The translations under genes were made by a program, and so were the position numbers. A stretch of 64,000 nucleotides of DNA from Nitrososphaera sp. Lineage in GTDB: Archaea > Thermoproteota > Nitrososphaeria > Nitrososphaerales > Nitrososphaeraceae. The DNA is taken from assembly GCA_039938515.1 (NCBI GenBank), contig JBDUUL010000009.1, positions 1 to 64,000 on the forward strand. Direction: 5' to 3'. Of this stretch, positions 50,305 through 60,835 are shown in pieces. The notes under the pieces were generated by a model. That model had not been told where the DNA came from and did not search any database. It saw only the letters and a program-made list of their open reading frames with translations. Numbering within the stretch: position 1 is the first letter of the stretch; every line of letters begins with the position of its first letter.

Positions 50305-52254
50305 ATGGGTAGACAGGCATTCCTAGTGATTATTTTGGTTATTGCAATTGCAGTTGCTGCGATTATTCCGTTTGGGATCTCCCGAGGTGCAATATCGCAA
50401 AAAGTGGACCTGATTCCGACTGGTCCTGCACGTCCCTCTCCAGGCAACCATACTTCGCAGGAAACAACAGCAGCGTCGGTTTCCAATTCAAGTTATGCAG
50501 TAGTAAACAACAAGACGGCTATCTCGCAACTAAAGCTCGCGTCGCTTTTGCCGGCTCCTGTCGACCCCAGGGCAGGCAGGGCGGACAGAAACGTCACGGC
50601 AATCGCAGCGGCTGATAAGCTTTTTGATGTGACTTCTAATGGCTCGCACTTTGTCAGTGGAACAAGCGGCAATGCGCTGCAATTCCACGCATACTATGAG
50701 GACTACTTTTCTTATGAAAACTCGTCTTCATTATCGAGCCCTACGCTCACGGTCTCGTTTTGGATGATGAGAGATCCAAACGACCAGAATTACGGGCATT
50801 TTGTTTCATACTTTAACCCCACGTCACATTCGGGCTGGTACTTTGATACCGGCAACTCGACTGACCAATCCGCAAGGTTCACAGTAACAAACACAAATGG
50901 CACCCTGTTCCAGACACAGGATGTAAAACTGCAGATCGGTCATTGGGAGCAAATTGTGGGGGTTTTTGACGGCTCGACTGTGGCCATCTATGGCAACGGG
51001 TCGCTAGCCAGCTCGGTCAGGTTCTCCGGCACCTACAACCCGTCGCCTGCTGTGCCTTTGCGCATTGCAGAGGGCTCTTATTGCAATTCTTGTGTTCCAA
51101 CAGGCCTTACCATAGACGAGCTTCAGATTTACGGAAAGGGCGCCCCGGCATACCAAATAGCCGCGAGGTGGAATTCAAGCCAACCCCTGTTAAACCAGGT
51201 GCCGCTCACTGGCTACTGGAAGTTTGACAACAATCTGGTCAATCAAGTCAGAGGCGATAGCGGCAGCATAGCCACACTGGTAGGCGGTATGGCCGCCGCT
51301 CCTGACGGCCGCGTCTTCTTTACAGAAAAAAACACAGGAGAGATAAGGATTCTCCAGAACAACCGAGTTCTTGCAGACCCCTTTGCCACCATCAACGATG
51401 TCTTTCCGACAATAATGTACGGGCTGCTTGGAATTGCGGTCGATCCCGACTTTGAGTCAAATCACTTCGTTTATGCTTACTACACTTCATTCGATAACGA
51501 ATCGGGCTTGGCCTTGAGCAGGGTCGTTAGATTCACTGACCAGAACAACACTGGAAGCAGCGAGAAAATCATTTTCGACAAAATCCCCGCTTTTAACGGG
51601 ATGCACACTGGCGGTGGATTGGGTTTTGGTCCAGATGGCAAGCTGTACGTCACGGTCGGCGATGGCTACCTAGGGGCACCCGCCCAGAACGTTTCAAGCC
51701 TGTTGGGCAAAACCTTGCGCATCAATAAAGACGGCTCTATACCGGCGGATAACCCGTTTCCAAACTCCCCGGTGTTCAACTACGGACATCGAAACGTCTA
51801 CGGCATCGCTTTCGACAATCGGACGGGAACCATAATATCAACTGAAAATGGTGTTGATATTTACGACCAGGTGAATTTGGAAGTTAAAGCCGGGAACTAC
51901 GGCTGGCCTAACCTGAGGAGGGCAGACACTAACCCCGAGCTTTCAAACTCTACCATGGTGGATCCAATCCTGGTTTACTTTTACACTATTGCACCCACAC
52001 AGGCAGTATATTATGACAAGGCAAAGTTTCCGCAACTGACTGGCATGTTCCTCTTTGGCTCGTACAACCGCGGGGAAATATTTGGCTTCAAGATGGATCC
52101 TGATGGCAAGCATGTAGCGGAGCAAATCGAAATAAAGCTGCCACAAAACACGTTCACGGACCCGGTCACTTCCATCACTGTTGCGCAGGACGGTGGCATT
52201 TATTTTGGAGGCCACCATATATACAGACTATCAGACCTCTCCCTGCAACCCTAG
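50305..52254 (+). CDS. Exported LamG + PQQ-type sugar dehydrogenase
   Basis: 649 residues, ATG. Signal anchor FLVIILVIAIAVAAIIPFGIS; an Ala/Pro/Thr-rich linker; a LamG/concanavalin-like domain (about 95-290: LQFHAYYEDYFSYENSSSLS, TLTVSFWMMRDPN, IVGVFDGSTVAIYGNG); then a beta-propeller of the glucose/sorbosone dehydrogenase family (about 320-645) with FTEKNTGEIRIL, MHTGGGLGFGPDGKLYVTVGDG (catalytic His), GKTLRINKDGSIPADNPF and NYGHRNVYGIAFD. It would oxidise sugars or other aldoses outside the cell using PQQ. PQQ supply in AOA is uncertain. Confidence 0.9.
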   Translation: MGRQAFLVIILVIAIAVAAIIPFGISRGAISQKVDLIPTGPARPSPGNHTSQETTAASVSNSSYAVVNNKTAISQLKLASLLPAPVDPRAGRADRNVTAIAAADKLFDVTSNGSHFVSGTSGNALQFHAYYEDYFSYENSSSLSSPTLTVSFWMMRDPNDQNYGHFVSYFNPTSHSGWYFDTGNSTDQSARFTVTNTNGTLFQTQDVKLQIGHWEQIVGVFDGSTVAIYGNGSLASSVRFSGTYNPSPAVPLRIAEGSYCNSCVPTGLTIDELQIYGKGAPAYQIAARWNSSQPLLNQVPLTGYWKFDNNLVNQVRGDSGSIATLVGGMAAAPDGRVFFTEKNTGEIRILQNNRVLADPFATINDVFPTIMYGLLGIAVDPDFESNHFVYAYYTSFDNESGLALSRVVRFTDQNNTGSSEKIIFDKIPAFNGMHTGGGLGFGPDGKLYVTVGDGYLGAPAQNVSSLLGKTLRINKDGSIPADNPFPNSPVFNYGHRNVYGIAFDNRTGTIISTENGVDIYDQVNLEVKAGNYGWPNLRRADTNPELSNSTMVDPILVYFYTIAPTQAVYYDKAKFPQLTGMFLFGSYNRGEIFGFKMDPDGKHVAEQIEIKLPQNTFTDPVTSITVAQDGGIYFGGHHIYRLSDLSLQP

Positions 52255-52422
52255 CTACTCCGGCAGTGTCGACGTCGCTGTCCCAATGCGGTAGGCCTCA
52301 TTCGTGCGGAGACTGACTGCGAAATGGCCTCCCAGCCAGATAAAGTATAGGGAGCCTTCAGGATGCAGCAATTTACAAGAACCTTGGAAATTGCTGCTGT
52401 TATCGGCTTCACACTACATTGT

Positions 52423-52433
52423 GATATAATATA
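52423..52433 (+). promoter_or_regulatory. TATA box of discoidin-domain protein gene
   Basis: GATATAATATA, 27-37 nt before the TTG at 52460. Confidence 0.5.
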
Positions 52434-52459
52434 CTAATAGAACATAATTACCGAATTAA

Positions 52460-53908
52460 TTGCCCGTCAAACGTATCCACTTTCGAGGAAGGTTATCTCC
52501 TGCAGCTGCAATTCTTCTTGGAGTAATGCTTTTTGGCACAGCACTAAGTAACACCTCGTCAGTCGGTAACCGGTACTCTGCGTCTGCAGCAAGCACATGT
52601 GCGCCCGTGAAGATTTCCGGAATCAGCGCAAGTTCCAGTTATGCAGGGTTTGCGGCGTCCCACGCAATTGATGGCTCCCTTAGAACGAGATGGGCCGCGG
52701 CCCCGGGGTCATGGATTATGGCAAATCTCCAATCAAAGCAGATTATATGCAGTGTAAGCGTAGCATGGTTTAGGGGAGACTCGGTGAAATACAGCTTTGA
52801 AATCCAGCTATCAATCGACGGATCTTCTTGGAGTCAGGCGTATGCTGGAACAAGCAGCGGCAAGACAAAAGCGCTCGAATCTTATTCAATACCGTCTATG
52901 AGCGCCCAGGCAATCAAGATTCTTGTCTCCGGCAGTTCCACCAACAAGTCGGTTAGTATCACAGAACTTGCGGTTGGCAGCTACGCCTCAGTGTCAGCGA
53001 CGCCATCGATAGAGATAACATCACCGGCCCAGCTGTCCACGGTCAGTTCGCCAATCTTGAACGTCACGGGAAGCGCATCTGACGGCACTGGCGCCGGCAT
53101 AGAATCCGTTGAAGTCAGAGTGGATAACGGACCATTCGCTGCTGCCAGACAGCTAGGAAGCAATGGCTGGGGGTCATGGTCTGCTCCTACGAACTTGGGC
53201 GCAGCCGGGCCGCATAACGTCACAGCTATGGTAGTAGACCTGGCCGGTAACCAAGCCAGTAATACCGTCGCAGTTACCGTTCAATCGGGACTTTACGATG
53301 ACTTTTCCGGCGGAACATACACACTTGTCGACGGCCAGTCATCCCCGAATGGCAAGTGGCATGACCAGTTCAACGGATATGGTTCGGCGGGTGTCAGGGC
53401 CGACTCTAACGGCAACAACATTTTCTTTGAGCAGCCAGAGACTGCCACGGACGGAAGTACACACGCAGCGCTAGTGCTATCCACGAAAAACCTTGGTACT
53501 AGCTACAAACTTTCGCTAGACGTCAGAACAGACAGGCAGCTCAAGCCGAATCCCAACACATGGGAAACTGCCTGGATAATGTTCAATTACGTGGATAGCT
53601 GGCACCATTACTACTTTACCCTGAAGACTAATGGATATGAGCTTGGAAAGAAGGATAACAACCTCCAGCGGGATCAGCAGGTCTTTCTTGCAACTGGCGC
53701 GTCGCCGAGCGTGACCTTGGGCACTTGGCAGCACGTGGACATCCAGGTTCAGGGCAACCACATTATCGTATGGGTAAACTCGGCCAAGGTGGCAGACTAT
53801 TTTGACACAGGTATGAGCTCTGCATTCGCAAACGGAGGTGCCCTTGGGCTCTACACCGAGGACTCTGCAGTAAGCTTTGATAATATCTACACGAGTTCGC
53901 TCCAGTAG
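52460..53908 (+). CDS. Exported discoidin (F5/8 type C) + Ig + LamG-like protein
   Basis: 482 residues, TTG start behind a TATA box. Signal peptide (AAAILLGVMLFGTALSNTSS). Domains in order: a discoidin/CBM-like galactose-binding domain (about 50-175: ISGISASSSYAGFAASHAIDGSLRTRWAA, FEIQLSIDGSSWSQAYAGTSSG); an Ig-like domain (about 180-275: IEITSPAQLSTVSSPILNVTGSASDG, HNVTAMVVDLAGN); and a concanavalin/DUF1080-like domain (about 278-482: WETAWIMFNYVDSWHHYYFTLKTNGYELGKKD, WQHVDIQVQGNHIIVWVNSAKV). Probably a polysaccharide- or glycan-binding surface protein; no clear catalytic residues. N-linked sequons are frequent. Confidence 0.8.
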   Translation: MPVKRIHFRGRLSPAAAILLGVMLFGTALSNTSSVGNRYSASAASTCAPVKISGISASSSYAGFAASHAIDGSLRTRWAAAPGSWIMANLQSKQIICSVSVAWFRGDSVKYSFEIQLSIDGSSWSQAYAGTSSGKTKALESYSIPSMSAQAIKILVSGSSTNKSVSITELAVGSYASVSATPSIEITSPAQLSTVSSPILNVTGSASDGTGAGIESVEVRVDNGPFAAARQLGSNGWGSWSAPTNLGAAGPHNVTAMVVDLAGNQASNTVAVTVQSGLYDDFSGGTYTLVDGQSSPNGKWHDQFNGYGSAGVRADSNGNNIFFEQPETATDGSTHAALVLSTKNLGTSYKLSLDVRTDRQLKPNPNTWETAWIMFNYVDSWHHYYFTLKTNGYELGKKDNNLQRDQQVFLATGASPSVTLGTWQHVDIQVQGNHIIVWVNSAKVADYFDTGMSSAFANGGALGLYTEDSAVSFDNIYTSSLQ

Positions 53909-54056
53909 CAGCCAATGAAAGACAATCGACAGTCTACTTGAAGCGGCTAGACCCCCGTGAGCCGAAAGTTTAGGCTCTGGGTTGAGGAAATGTTTCCACA
54001 GCCTGCGTCAGCCCGCAGTTGAACTTGGTGATTTTCTCTAGTTTTTGAAGGCATCA

Positions 54057-54069
54057 AGCTTATATAGAA
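54057..54069 (+). promoter_or_regulatory. TATA box of G1 peptidase gene
   Basis: GCTTATATAGAAT, about 22-34 nt before the TTG at 54091. Confidence 0.5.
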
Positions 54070-54090
54070 TCCGAGGGCTACAAAATCCTC

Positions 54091-54906
54091 TTGAAGATTT
54101 TTCTGTATGGACGCACCAATAATGCCGAGTTCGCACTGGCAACCTTGGCCTTTTTTGCCATAGCAACCCTGCTGTTGCTTCCTATGGTTTCAGTAGTTTT
54201 GGCATCGCCGGCCGACAGGCCAATTCAGGCTCCCAGGTTGCACGTGAAGGATACCAGCTTTAGCTCAAACTGGAGCGGGTACGCAGTAGAATCGAACCTG
54301 AACAGTCCCGCGAGCAACTATATACGCAGTGCGTCAGGTTCATGGGTCATTCCAGCACTTTCCTGTACCCCGACTACCACTTACTCTTCGATCTGGGTAG
54401 GAATAGACGGCTACTCCAGCAATACTGTTGAGCAGCTCGGTACTGAGCAGGACTGCTCTGGTGGAGTTCAGAGAAACTATGCCTGGTTTGAAATGTATCC
54501 TTCAGCCTCAAGGCTAATTACGACTGTCTCGGTCAACGCCGGCGACAGAATAACTGCTTCAGTAGTTTATCTTGGGTCTAGCCAATTCAGGCTCAACCTG
54601 AGAGATCTAACTACAGGTCAGACCTTCAGCACGCTAGCCTCGGGCACCGCCCAGCTTTCCTCCGCAGAATGGGTCGTAGAAGCGCCTTCAGCCGCTTCCA
54701 TCCTGCCTCTGTCGAACTTTGGCACGGCGACAATAACAAATGCCAGGTACACAACGATAGCCTCGCCCTCTGTTACTGAAACAATTAGCGGCCTTGGTTC
54801 GAACACTTATACGGATATCGCGATGCACGACCCTGCAGGCGGTAACGCAACGCCCACTTCGCTTAACCCTACTGGCACTGCATTTCGCGACACGTACTCT
54901 AGCTGA
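54091..54906 (+). CDS. Glutamic endopeptidase, family G1 (eqolisin-like)
   Basis: 271 residues, TTG. Signal segment (FFAIATLLLLPMVSVVLASP). The G1 fold is read from NWSGYAVES (about 60-68), SGSWVIPALSC, SIWVGIDGYSSNTVEQLGTEQDC with the probable catalytic Gln Q115, YAWFEMYP, and SAEWVVEAPS with catalytic Glu E193 or E197. This family of acid endopeptidases was described in fungi and later in bacteria; the two core motifs are intact, so activity is likely, outside the cell. Confidence 0.85.
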   Translation: MKIFLYGRTNNAEFALATLAFFAIATLLLLPMVSVVLASPADRPIQAPRLHVKDTSFSSNWSGYAVESNLNSPASNYIRSASGSWVIPALSCTPTTTYSSIWVGIDGYSSNTVEQLGTEQDCSGGVQRNYAWFEMYPSASRLITTVSVNAGDRITASVVYLGSSQFRLNLRDLTTGQTFSTLASGTAQLSSAEWVVEAPSAASILPLSNFGTATITNARYTTIASPSVTETISGLGSNTYTDIAMHDPAGGNATPTSLNPTGTAFRDTYSS

Positions 54907-58258: not shown

Positions 58259-60835
58259 ATGTTTGCATATGACGGGAGAAAATTAGGTGTTAAAGTTTCT
58301 GCTTTGATTTTACTCGCACTCATCACATCAGTGGGAGTCACGTCTGCTTTCAGGGTTCAGGCAGCAGTTGCTCAGACTGTAACTTATCCGGTCACCCAAA
58401 TGTCCGACACAACCGGAACGGGACTCTTCGGAGTATCTGCACCTTCACCTTCCCAGACCGAGTATGCTTCTGCGTCTTCGCAGTTGGTCGGCAAGAGTAT
58501 AGACCAGATTACGATTAAGCTGAGGAAGGTAGGTGCGCCGCCAGGCAACTTCCAAGTAGGCATAATCAACGCCGATCTTTCCATTAAGAAGTTGTTTGGG
58601 ACAATGAGCGCCTCAAGTTTGAGTCCGACTGCAACTGATTACACTTTCTCGCTTTCAGGAGGCGGCCTATATACAATCCAAGCAGGCGACAGAATTGGAA
58701 TTGAATACTCGAGTGGAGACGCTCAGAATTTTGTTGCCATTCTTGTTGATCGAAATGTTGCTGACCCCTTTGATGGAAGCAACACATATCGACAGGCCTA
58801 CACGACCACTTGGACTAGCTTTACATCTGATGACCTTTACATGATCTTGGTTCAGACTCATGCAGCTGATACGACTCCCCCGACCGTAACGGCGAGCCCT
58901 CCTGGCGGCACTTTCACAACGGCCCAATCGGTAACATTGACACCTAGCGAGCCTGCGACCATATACTATACTACCAACGGCATAAACCCTACAACCTCTA
59001 GCAGCGTCTATTCATCCCCTATTTCGATATCATCTAACACTACGCTGAAATTCTTTGGAGTCGATACCTCAGGAAACGTTGGCACTGTTGTCACGCAGCA
59101 GTACAATTTCCACATTTCATCATGCAGTGTAAGCATCTCACCTTCGGGTTCGCTAATGAAAAATGTGGGCGAGTTTGCTCAGTTCAGCGCGACGGCCACT
59201 GGCACGAGCTCACCGAGCTACCATTGGACTGTTTCAGGAAGTATAATCAAAGACTATCAGGAACTCACCAACTTTGCGGCATTCACGTCTACTGGCAACT
59301 ATACAGGCTTGGCCACTACGCCAATGTCTACATCGGACTACAATTCACAGTCCATTGGTTTTTACTGGCTGCCTGACCCAAGCCAAGTCTACCCTAACAA
59401 TGCAAATGTCACAAGAACAGTTTCTGTCTCTGTAAACGGAGGCCTCTGTTCAACTTCGCAGACAGTTACGCTTATCCGGAGCACCAACGATCCCAACAGA
59501 CAGCCTGAAGACTATTACGCACGATTGAACCACCCTCTGACTTATAACGTCCCCATCGCAGGACAGCAGATCTTGTATAATGGAACAAGATTATTGCAGG
59601 AACACATGCTCTGGCACGAGACAAACAGGTTTGGCTCCAGCTCAGGCACTGGCCCTCAAAGTTACGATGGTAGCCTGTTCTTCTCCTTCCACAGGGCGCT
59701 GCTAGACAACTACAATGCATGGCGCACAATGTTTGGTTACCCACAAGTTGGAACATGGACTCCAGGCGGAAGAGTGTCTTCGATTCCTACCACCGAGAAT
59801 GGCCAGGACATCACAGACGCCCAGAGATTTGGCACCAGTGGCACTCCGGCTGTACCTTCATACTTTACAATTTCAGGCGGAACAACTCTGCGGCCATCAC
59901 TGAATCAATGCGACCGTAATATGCCGGCTGGTCAGCAAAAGCTCAGTGACTTCGGTAACTTGACTCAGCTGGGCTGCGCTGTAACTATCAACCTGCACAA
60001 TCCGGTTCACAACTCTATCGGCTCAAGCGCAGTCCAGGGCGCATGCACCAACCCCTCAATCTTCACGACACAATGCGGAGACATGACACTCATGATGACC
60101 TCAGAGAAAGACCCCATCTTCTGGAGGTTCCACAACTTTTTAGATCAGATACGACAGAATTATCTAATCGCAACAGGCGGGGCTGCTCACATACTCTACC
60201 AAAGCCCATTCCCGCTGTATCACTACCTGACCAATTTGCCGACTACAAACGTGCAGCTTGAAAACGGGACAAAAGCTGATGTGCCCGCGATGGCAGTCAA
60301 GTTCGACCAGCCTGTTTACGGCGTGCGGGCTAGCGACTTCACGGTCAACGGCTCACCGGCAACCTCGGTAACCGGTTCAGGAGCTGGCCCTTACATATTC
60401 ACAGGCTTTGACTATCCGGGCTTTGGCGACGTTAACGTCGCAATGTCGTCGGGACAGATAATCAACGGGTTCGACGAGCCCTTTGCAGGTGACTCTTGGA
60501 GTTTCAAGATGGTTGATCCAAACGGCAACATTAACCATGACGGAATTCCCGACGGGATCAAGGTAAACGTATTCTTCCTCAACCCTGAAGTAACTGACAC
60601 TGATGGCGACGGAATTCCCGACTCTGTAGAAATTCAATCGCACTGTCTGAACCCACTAGATTCACACGACGCCGACCAGCCATCAGGACTTAACGGATAC
60701 ACCTACCTCCAAGAGTTCAGACTGCTCGGAATCATTACATGCAATACGGCTTCCTCGACGCAATCGGTCCAAACTCCGGCCATTGTCCCCACACAGACGG
60801 AGCAAACTGCTGCCGTACCCGACCTAACAAATTAG
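58259..60835 (+). CDS. Exported type-3 copper (tyrosinase-like) multidomain protein
   Basis: 858 residues, ATG behind a TATA box. Signal peptide (about 12-35). Domains: a beta-sandwich (about 40-200), a chitobiase/CHB-HEX-like Ig domain (about 205-285; TIYYTTNGINPT, LKFFGVDTSGNVG), a second Ig-like domain (about 288-405), and a tyrosinase/hemocyanin-type copper domain (about 410-650). CuB is clear: H580-NPV-H584 and DPIFWRFHNFLDQ with H625. CuA is H449/H453 (EHMLWHE) and H478 (FFSFHRALLD); the usual third His about 9 before H478 is missing. The C-terminal 750-800 has two Ca-binding repeats (DPNGNINHDGIPDG, DTDGDGIPDSVE). Likely a cell-surface or secreted oxidase acting on phenols. Ends in a strong T-run terminator. 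Confidence 0.88.
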   Translation: MFAYDGRKLGVKVSALILLALITSVGVTSAFRVQAAVAQTVTYPVTQMSDTTGTGLFGVSAPSPSQTEYASASSQLVGKSIDQITIKLRKVGAPPGNFQVGIINADLSIKKLFGTMSASSLSPTATDYTFSLSGGGLYTIQAGDRIGIEYSSGDAQNFVAILVDRNVADPFDGSNTYRQAYTTTWTSFTSDDLYMILVQTHAADTTPPTVTASPPGGTFTTAQSVTLTPSEPATIYYTTNGINPTTSSSVYSSPISISSNTTLKFFGVDTSGNVGTVVTQQYNFHISSCSVSISPSGSLMKNVGEFAQFSATATGTSSPSYHWTVSGSIIKDYQELTNFAAFTSTGNYTGLATTPMSTSDYNSQSIGFYWLPDPSQVYPNNANVTRTVSVSVNGGLCSTSQTVTLIRSTNDPNRQPEDYYARLNHPLTYNVPIAGQQILYNGTRLLQEHMLWHETNRFGSSSGTGPQSYDGSLFFSFHRALLDNYNAWRTMFGYPQVGTWTPGGRVSSIPTTENGQDITDAQRFGTSGTPAVPSYFTISGGTTLRPSLNQCDRNMPAGQQKLSDFGNLTQLGCAVTINLHNPVHNSIGSSAVQGACTNPSIFTTQCGDMTLMMTSEKDPIFWRFHNFLDQIRQNYLIATGGAAHILYQSPFPLYHYLTNLPTTNVQLENGTKADVPAMAVKFDQPVYGVRASDFTVNGSPATSVTGSGAGPYIFTGFDYPGFGDVNVAMSSGQIINGFDEPFAGDSWSFKMVDPNGNINHDGIPDGIKVNVFFLNPEVTDTDGDGIPDSVEIQSHCLNPLDSHDADQPSGLNGYTYLQEFRLLGIITCNTASSTQSVQTPAIVPTQTEQTAAVPDLTN

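Follow-up and report, generated by a model that had tools for sequence, protein, structure and literature searches.

A predicted exported archaeal protein with a type-3 copper domain whose CuA site is beta-like by sequence

Gene, layout and surroundings

The window, by which is meant the whole analysed stretch of 64,000 nucleotides of a Nitrososphaera sp. contig, carries towards its end an uninterrupted open reading frame of 858 amino acids on the plus strand. Its features, with the evidence for each in brackets, are as follows.

58259..60835, plus strand: predicted exported protein with a type-3 copper domain, 858 aa (open frame, ATG start)
58259..58363, plus strand: signal peptide-like N-terminus, residues 1-35, hydrophobic core 9-31 (hydropathy only)
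58376..58858, plus strand: N-terminal beta-rich module, residues 40-200 (tblastn, own genome and G013-G015)
58898..59095, plus strand: CHB_HEX_C_1 / Fn3_assoc domain, residues 214-279 (Pfam, 3.4e-21)
59111..59473, plus strand: Ig-like region, residues 285-405 (weak Ig_3 match at residues 291-349, 4.6e-4, under cut-off)
59480..60193, plus strand: type-3 copper domain, residues 408-645 (PF00264 for the CuB half; alignments to arthropod phenoloxidases and archaeal L035)
59603..59617, plus strand: putative CuA ligands 1 and 2, H449-MLW-H453, HxxxH of beta type (aligned to HWHWH of Manduca PPO1)
59690..59692, plus strand: putative CuA ligand 3, H478 (Manduca PPO1 alignment)
59996..60010, plus strand: putative CuB ligands 1 and 2, H580-NPV-H584 (PF00264; conserved in L039)
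60131..60133, plus strand: putative CuB ligand 3, H625 in DPIFWRFHNFLD (PF00264; conserved in L039)
60221..60493, plus strand: Big_12-like bacterial Ig-like domain, residues 655-745 (conserved with L039, whose homologous stretch matches Big_12 weakly, 0.056)
60506..60667, plus strand: TSP3-like calcium-binding repeats, residues 750-803 (weak TSP3_bac match at 780-793; 2.9e-4 in the relative L039)

Hydropathy gives a hydrophobic stretch at residues 9-31 followed by small residues, a signal-like N-terminus, and no later hydrophobic segment. The original prediction, made from the DNA letters, had proposed an exported type-3 copper protein in an ammonia oxidiser, with the copper domain set after Ig-like beta domains and before calcium-binding repeats. 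The signal-like N-terminus, the PF00264 match and the archaeal amoA carried by the host genome agree with the first proposal, and the succession of CHB_HEX_C_1, weak Ig_3 match, copper domain and weak TSP3 match bears out the second. The N-terminal module (residues 40-200) matched no Pfam family; the corresponding stretch, 58376-58858, recurs in several large proteins of the same genome (C1, C24) and of G013-G015, often together with CHB_HEX, and would appear to be a genus-level module of large predicted surface proteins.

The GC content over the gene (46-52%) is like that of its surroundings, and composition therefore gives no sign for or against horizontal gain. Upstream, within 8 kb, are three genes whose products are predicted exported enzymes; the run at 50305-54906 encodes a glucose/sorbosone dehydrogenase with a laminin-G-like (lectin-like) domain, a protein combining F5/8C with a 3-keto-disaccharide hydrolase, and a peptidase A4.

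Six histidines and the plan of the copper sites

Residues 449, 453, 478, 580, 584 and 625 are all histidines, at the positions the original prediction had given for its candidate ligands, and when the same domain is shuffled, the double pattern HxxxH...H...HxxxH...H that they make up turns up 146 times in 200,000. A search with Pfam Tyrosinase (PF00264), proposed at the outset as a check, returns a type-3 copper match above cut-off at residues 554-632 (E 9.6e-9; 36.3 bits, the cut-off being 22.6, or 39.8 bits when the copper domain is cut out alone). The match spans profile positions 147-208 of 214 only and is thus confined to the CuB half, the CuA half being matched by no profile in this family search. 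CuB itself is recognised about equally by beta and alpha profiles (34.6 and 38.2 bits, respectively). As read from aligned sequences, its HisB2-HisB3 spacing of 41 is nearer to the beta value (about 36) than to that of Streptomyces-type tyrosinase (22), and it carries the motif RFH instead of LHH.

In alpha and gamma type-3 copper proteins CuA follows the scheme H(n)-H(8)-H, whereas the beta-subclass, which takes in arthropod phenoloxidases and hemocyanins, has its second histidine elsewhere (Aguilera et al. 2013, PMC3658974). In the structure of AgPPO8 the ligands are H223/H227/H252 and H379/H383/H419, with HxxxH in both sites and the third CuA histidine 25 residues on (PMC4700666). The window protein has H449-x3-H453 and then H478, likewise 25 residues on, its histidines in register with those of Manduca PPO1; no histidine lies between H453 and H478, which departs from the alpha scheme, and the displaced second histidine of the beta arrangement HxxxH...H is present. 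Given that H449/H453/H478 follows the AgPPO8-type plan, the CuA histidine that the original prediction had found missing is not missing. The accompanying view that the CuA geometry must differ was well founded, the order being, by alignment, that of arthropod phenoloxidases and hemocyanins, and the description of the protein as tyrosinase-like holds for CuB (PF00264) and fails for CuA, which is phenoloxidase/hemocyanin-like. H425, where MAFFT sets the alpha HisA1 in A5 and A7, was judged a less likely CuA ligand than H449/H453.

Several comparisons point the same way. A PDB profile search with the window protein and its relative gave thirteen top matches that all belong to the arthropod phenoloxidase/hemocyanin group (best 7.7e-5), with tyrosinases starting from 0.12. 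When the query was limited to the CuA stretch and excluded CuB, its sole match among 177,635 sequences was a solved protein, Manduca PPO1, at its CuA (E 0.051), a specific match though weak on its own. Six phenoloxidase-type sequences from insects and crustaceans, taken from search outputs, went into a beta CuA profile. With it the window protein scores 13.7 bits, a value reached by none of 7,000 shuffles (best 9.8), and a further 28 sequences that carry an FLxWHR-like motif (L035 and 27 alpha tyrosinases) score at most 7.4. Judged by its sequence, then, the CuA of this protein is beta-like. The Pfam profile Hemocyanin_M (PF00372) gives 12.6 bits, under its cut-off of 20.8.

Whether an alpha-type tyrosinase could have come to look like this bears directly on the assignment. 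Its CuA would have drifted or been rearranged, the HxxxH being convergent with that of arthropods and one ligand having moved a helical turn upstream of HisA1. The equal fit of CuB to alpha and beta would be in keeping with such a history, which is nonetheless somewhat unlikely: the likeness to phenoloxidase CuA exceeds the histidines, for around and after H478 the residues G, LF, YN, R, G and PQV are matched in register by Manduca PPO1, and an alpha CuA profile fails to recognise the window protein. The window protein scores 6.1 bits with it, a value that 5 of 2000 shuffles reach, as against 45-91 for alpha proteins, some of which also stood in the profile's building set; those left out of it (for example L062, L069, L081) still exceed 50 bits.

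Arthropod phenoloxidases (Manduca PPO1, 3hhs; AgPPO8, 4yzw) share with the window protein the HxxxH...H at CuA and CuB, GxLFxxxH and DPxFxR(W/F)HxFxD, and the longer HisB2-HisB3 loop. The similarity is confined to short stretches at the copper sites, and unlike these proteins the present one is archaeal, predicted to be exported and fused to beta modules, falls below the PF00372 cut-off and has no domain I or III found by profile search. Alpha tyrosinases (NkTYR of Nitrosopumilus koreensis, Streptomyces MelC2) resemble it in PF00264 at CuB, a secreted type, DPxFW...H...D and the Asn at HisB1+1; it differs from them in a much longer chain, in having neither the histidine eight residues ahead of HisA3 nor FLPWHR, and in a gene that adjoins no tyrosinase cofactor gene. 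A cytosolic form without a signal peptide is a criterion of the beta-subclass (PMC3658974), and the signal-like N-terminus indicated by hydropathy is instead an alpha-subclass trait.

Relatives, tree and models

No other PF00264 gene occurs in the host genome, and the copper domain is found in two of 70 family genomes, the host and G026, the Nitrososphaeraceae MAG Dino_bin45. Among 84,980 species, a scan with two tight patterns, which distant bacterial relatives could escape, picked out G026 alone. The G026 protein (L039, the same protein as L006) is about 41% identical to the window protein over the CuB half, the Big_12-like domain and the calcium repeats. It has neither the CuA half nor the N-terminal beta modules, and the rest of G026 gave no match to the CuA half. 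This sole relative with the copper domain, having no CuA, offers no comparison for the putative CuA ligands. The open frame in question (L039:5854-7545, equivalent to L006:877-2568) begins with a stretch (MAFVFISHSQSDTQIIDFF...) that by eye resembles TIR but has no Pfam hit, fused directly to the CuB half-domain. The G026 copy may be a decayed, fused or misassembled gene.

A second archaeal protein, L035 (G428, from a relative of the same order), aligns over the whole copper domain (194 residues, 27%) and likewise has HxxWH at CuA. It differs in an alpha-like second CuA helix, alpha CuB spacing, a short chain and another C-terminal tail. Its CuA scores 22.7 bits with the alpha profile and 0.0 with the beta profile, and the combination of HEAWH at the same place with alpha-like features elsewhere lends support to an alpha-type ancestry of the window protein with convergent HxxxH. 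To judge from its sequence, L035 could be an alpha/beta intermediate or a sign that HxxWH arises repeatedly. The coding stretch itself (L035:1198-2052) specifies a short tyrosinase-like protein whose CuA reads HEAWHQMH and whose CFIATAAYG tail recurs in the alpha tyrosinase of L032.

An unrooted tree from 69 columns around HisA3 and CuB, with the HxxxH columns left out, puts the window protein on the arthropod (beta) side of the alpha/beta split with support of 95/96, or 98/95 without G026, values that come with the small column number and a long-branch warning from the program. Since the tree is unrooted, the protein may be sister to beta or may branch off between alpha and beta. AU tests do not reject two alternative placements, one together with L035 (p 0.058) and one grouping it with part of alpha (p 0.096), a point in favour of the alpha-type reading.

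AlphaFold models of 528 aa from two alignment rows (pLDDT 32.6) and of 218 aa from ten rows including viral alpha tyrosinases (pLDDT 37.5) were both discarded. Both place helices over all six ligands at pLDDT below 40 and were not used as evidence, the low confidence being due to too few relatives; Foldseek with the 218-aa model (pLDDT 37.5) returned 0 matches.

Possible function and wider setting

The window protein is probably a secreted dicopper protein of several domains, phenol-oxidase-like and with a CuA of beta type. The predicted exported chain is modular, running from the N-terminal beta module through CHB_HEX, an Ig-like region, the copper domain and a further Ig-like domain to the calcium repeats. 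If the six histidines meet as their order suggests, CuA would be coordinated by H449, H453 and H478, following the arthropod phenoloxidase/hemocyanin order, and CuB by H580, H584 and H625; following the phenoloxidase mechanism, the reduced copper pair would bind O2 as peroxide and oxidise phenols or o-diphenols to quinones outside the cell, while the beta modules might anchor the enzyme to the surface or to polysaccharide, or keep it in position there. By analogy, extracellular phenol or o-diphenol oxidation is the most likely activity, and it is favoured by the six ligands, the Asn at HisB1+1, the signal-like N-terminus and the neighbouring genes for predicted exported enzymes. Other uses raised in the original prediction, namely humic-compound oxidation, defence and matrix cross-linking, would be candidate roles. 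That Asn (N581) is common to many tyrosinases, and the 'water keeper' Glu is almost universal (PMC11608171).

The Glu is absent from its usual alpha position in the window protein, and this is one of several observations that would suit a protein that is no oxidase, its beta-like fold serving another metal or reaction or forming a non-catalytic surface or adhesion module. AsqI, a fungal hemocyanin-like zinc cyclopenase, uses zinc at site A and no longer has site B (PMC6053404), the relative in G026 keeps CuB with CuA absent, and the gene is as rare as the count among family genomes implies. Such a role is nevertheless unlikely, given that the window protein keeps all six histidines, N581 and the DPIFWRFHNFLD motif. 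AsqI shares with it HxxxH...H at site A in a hemocyanin-type fold, and differs in its lost site B, its zinc and its place in a fungal alkaloid pathway. As to a water keeper, D564 (-16) is the sole acid within 16 residues ahead of HisB1 and is conserved in G026, which makes it a candidate only; an out-of-register phmmer alignment that would match Q570 with the catalytic Glu of AgPPO8 was discarded, since it displaces HisB1 too. An extracellular hemocyanin-like protein that binds O2 without oxidising would also fit the CuA arrangement, which arthropod hemocyanins share, and these are among the PDB profile matches. This is very improbable: hemocyanin domains I and III have no counterpart by profile search, and a single-copy surface protein would presumably be a poor O2 carrier.

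What is unusual here is a beta-type CuA in an archaeon, set within a long modular surface protein. Among the bacteria and archaea whose genomes it covered, a 2013 survey found the alpha-subclass alone; it recorded the beta-subclass from no groups but animals, fungi and amoebozoans, and placed its origin by inference on the unikont stem (PMC3658974). Within the literature library searched, no paper contradicts alpha-only in bacteria and archaea. If the phenol-oxidase-like protein proposed above is an archaeal secreted member of the beta-subclass, which we regard as a tentative possibility, the beta-type CuA would extend outside eukaryotes, through an older origin or through transfer. A microbial protein with an arthropod-type CuA is a place in which to seek the origin of the phenoloxidase/hemocyanin CuA, and the arrangement seen in L035 may be an intermediate one. 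The protein further suggests a predicted extracellular O2-using copper enzyme in a soil ammonia oxidiser, encoded beside genes for other predicted exported enzymes. Tyrosinases of ammonia-oxidising archaea are already known (Nitrosopumilus enzymes), and two have been expressed (NkTYR and NsTYR); ordinary alpha tyrosinases also occur in other archaeal genomes (G036, G277, G431). Plasmid, phage and viral collections contained no relative of the copper domain. A separate scan of viruses for alpha tyrosinases turned up 22 IMG/VR contigs (L067-L088) that encode them (polyphenol oxidase-like), and these are of alpha type wherever CuA was read.
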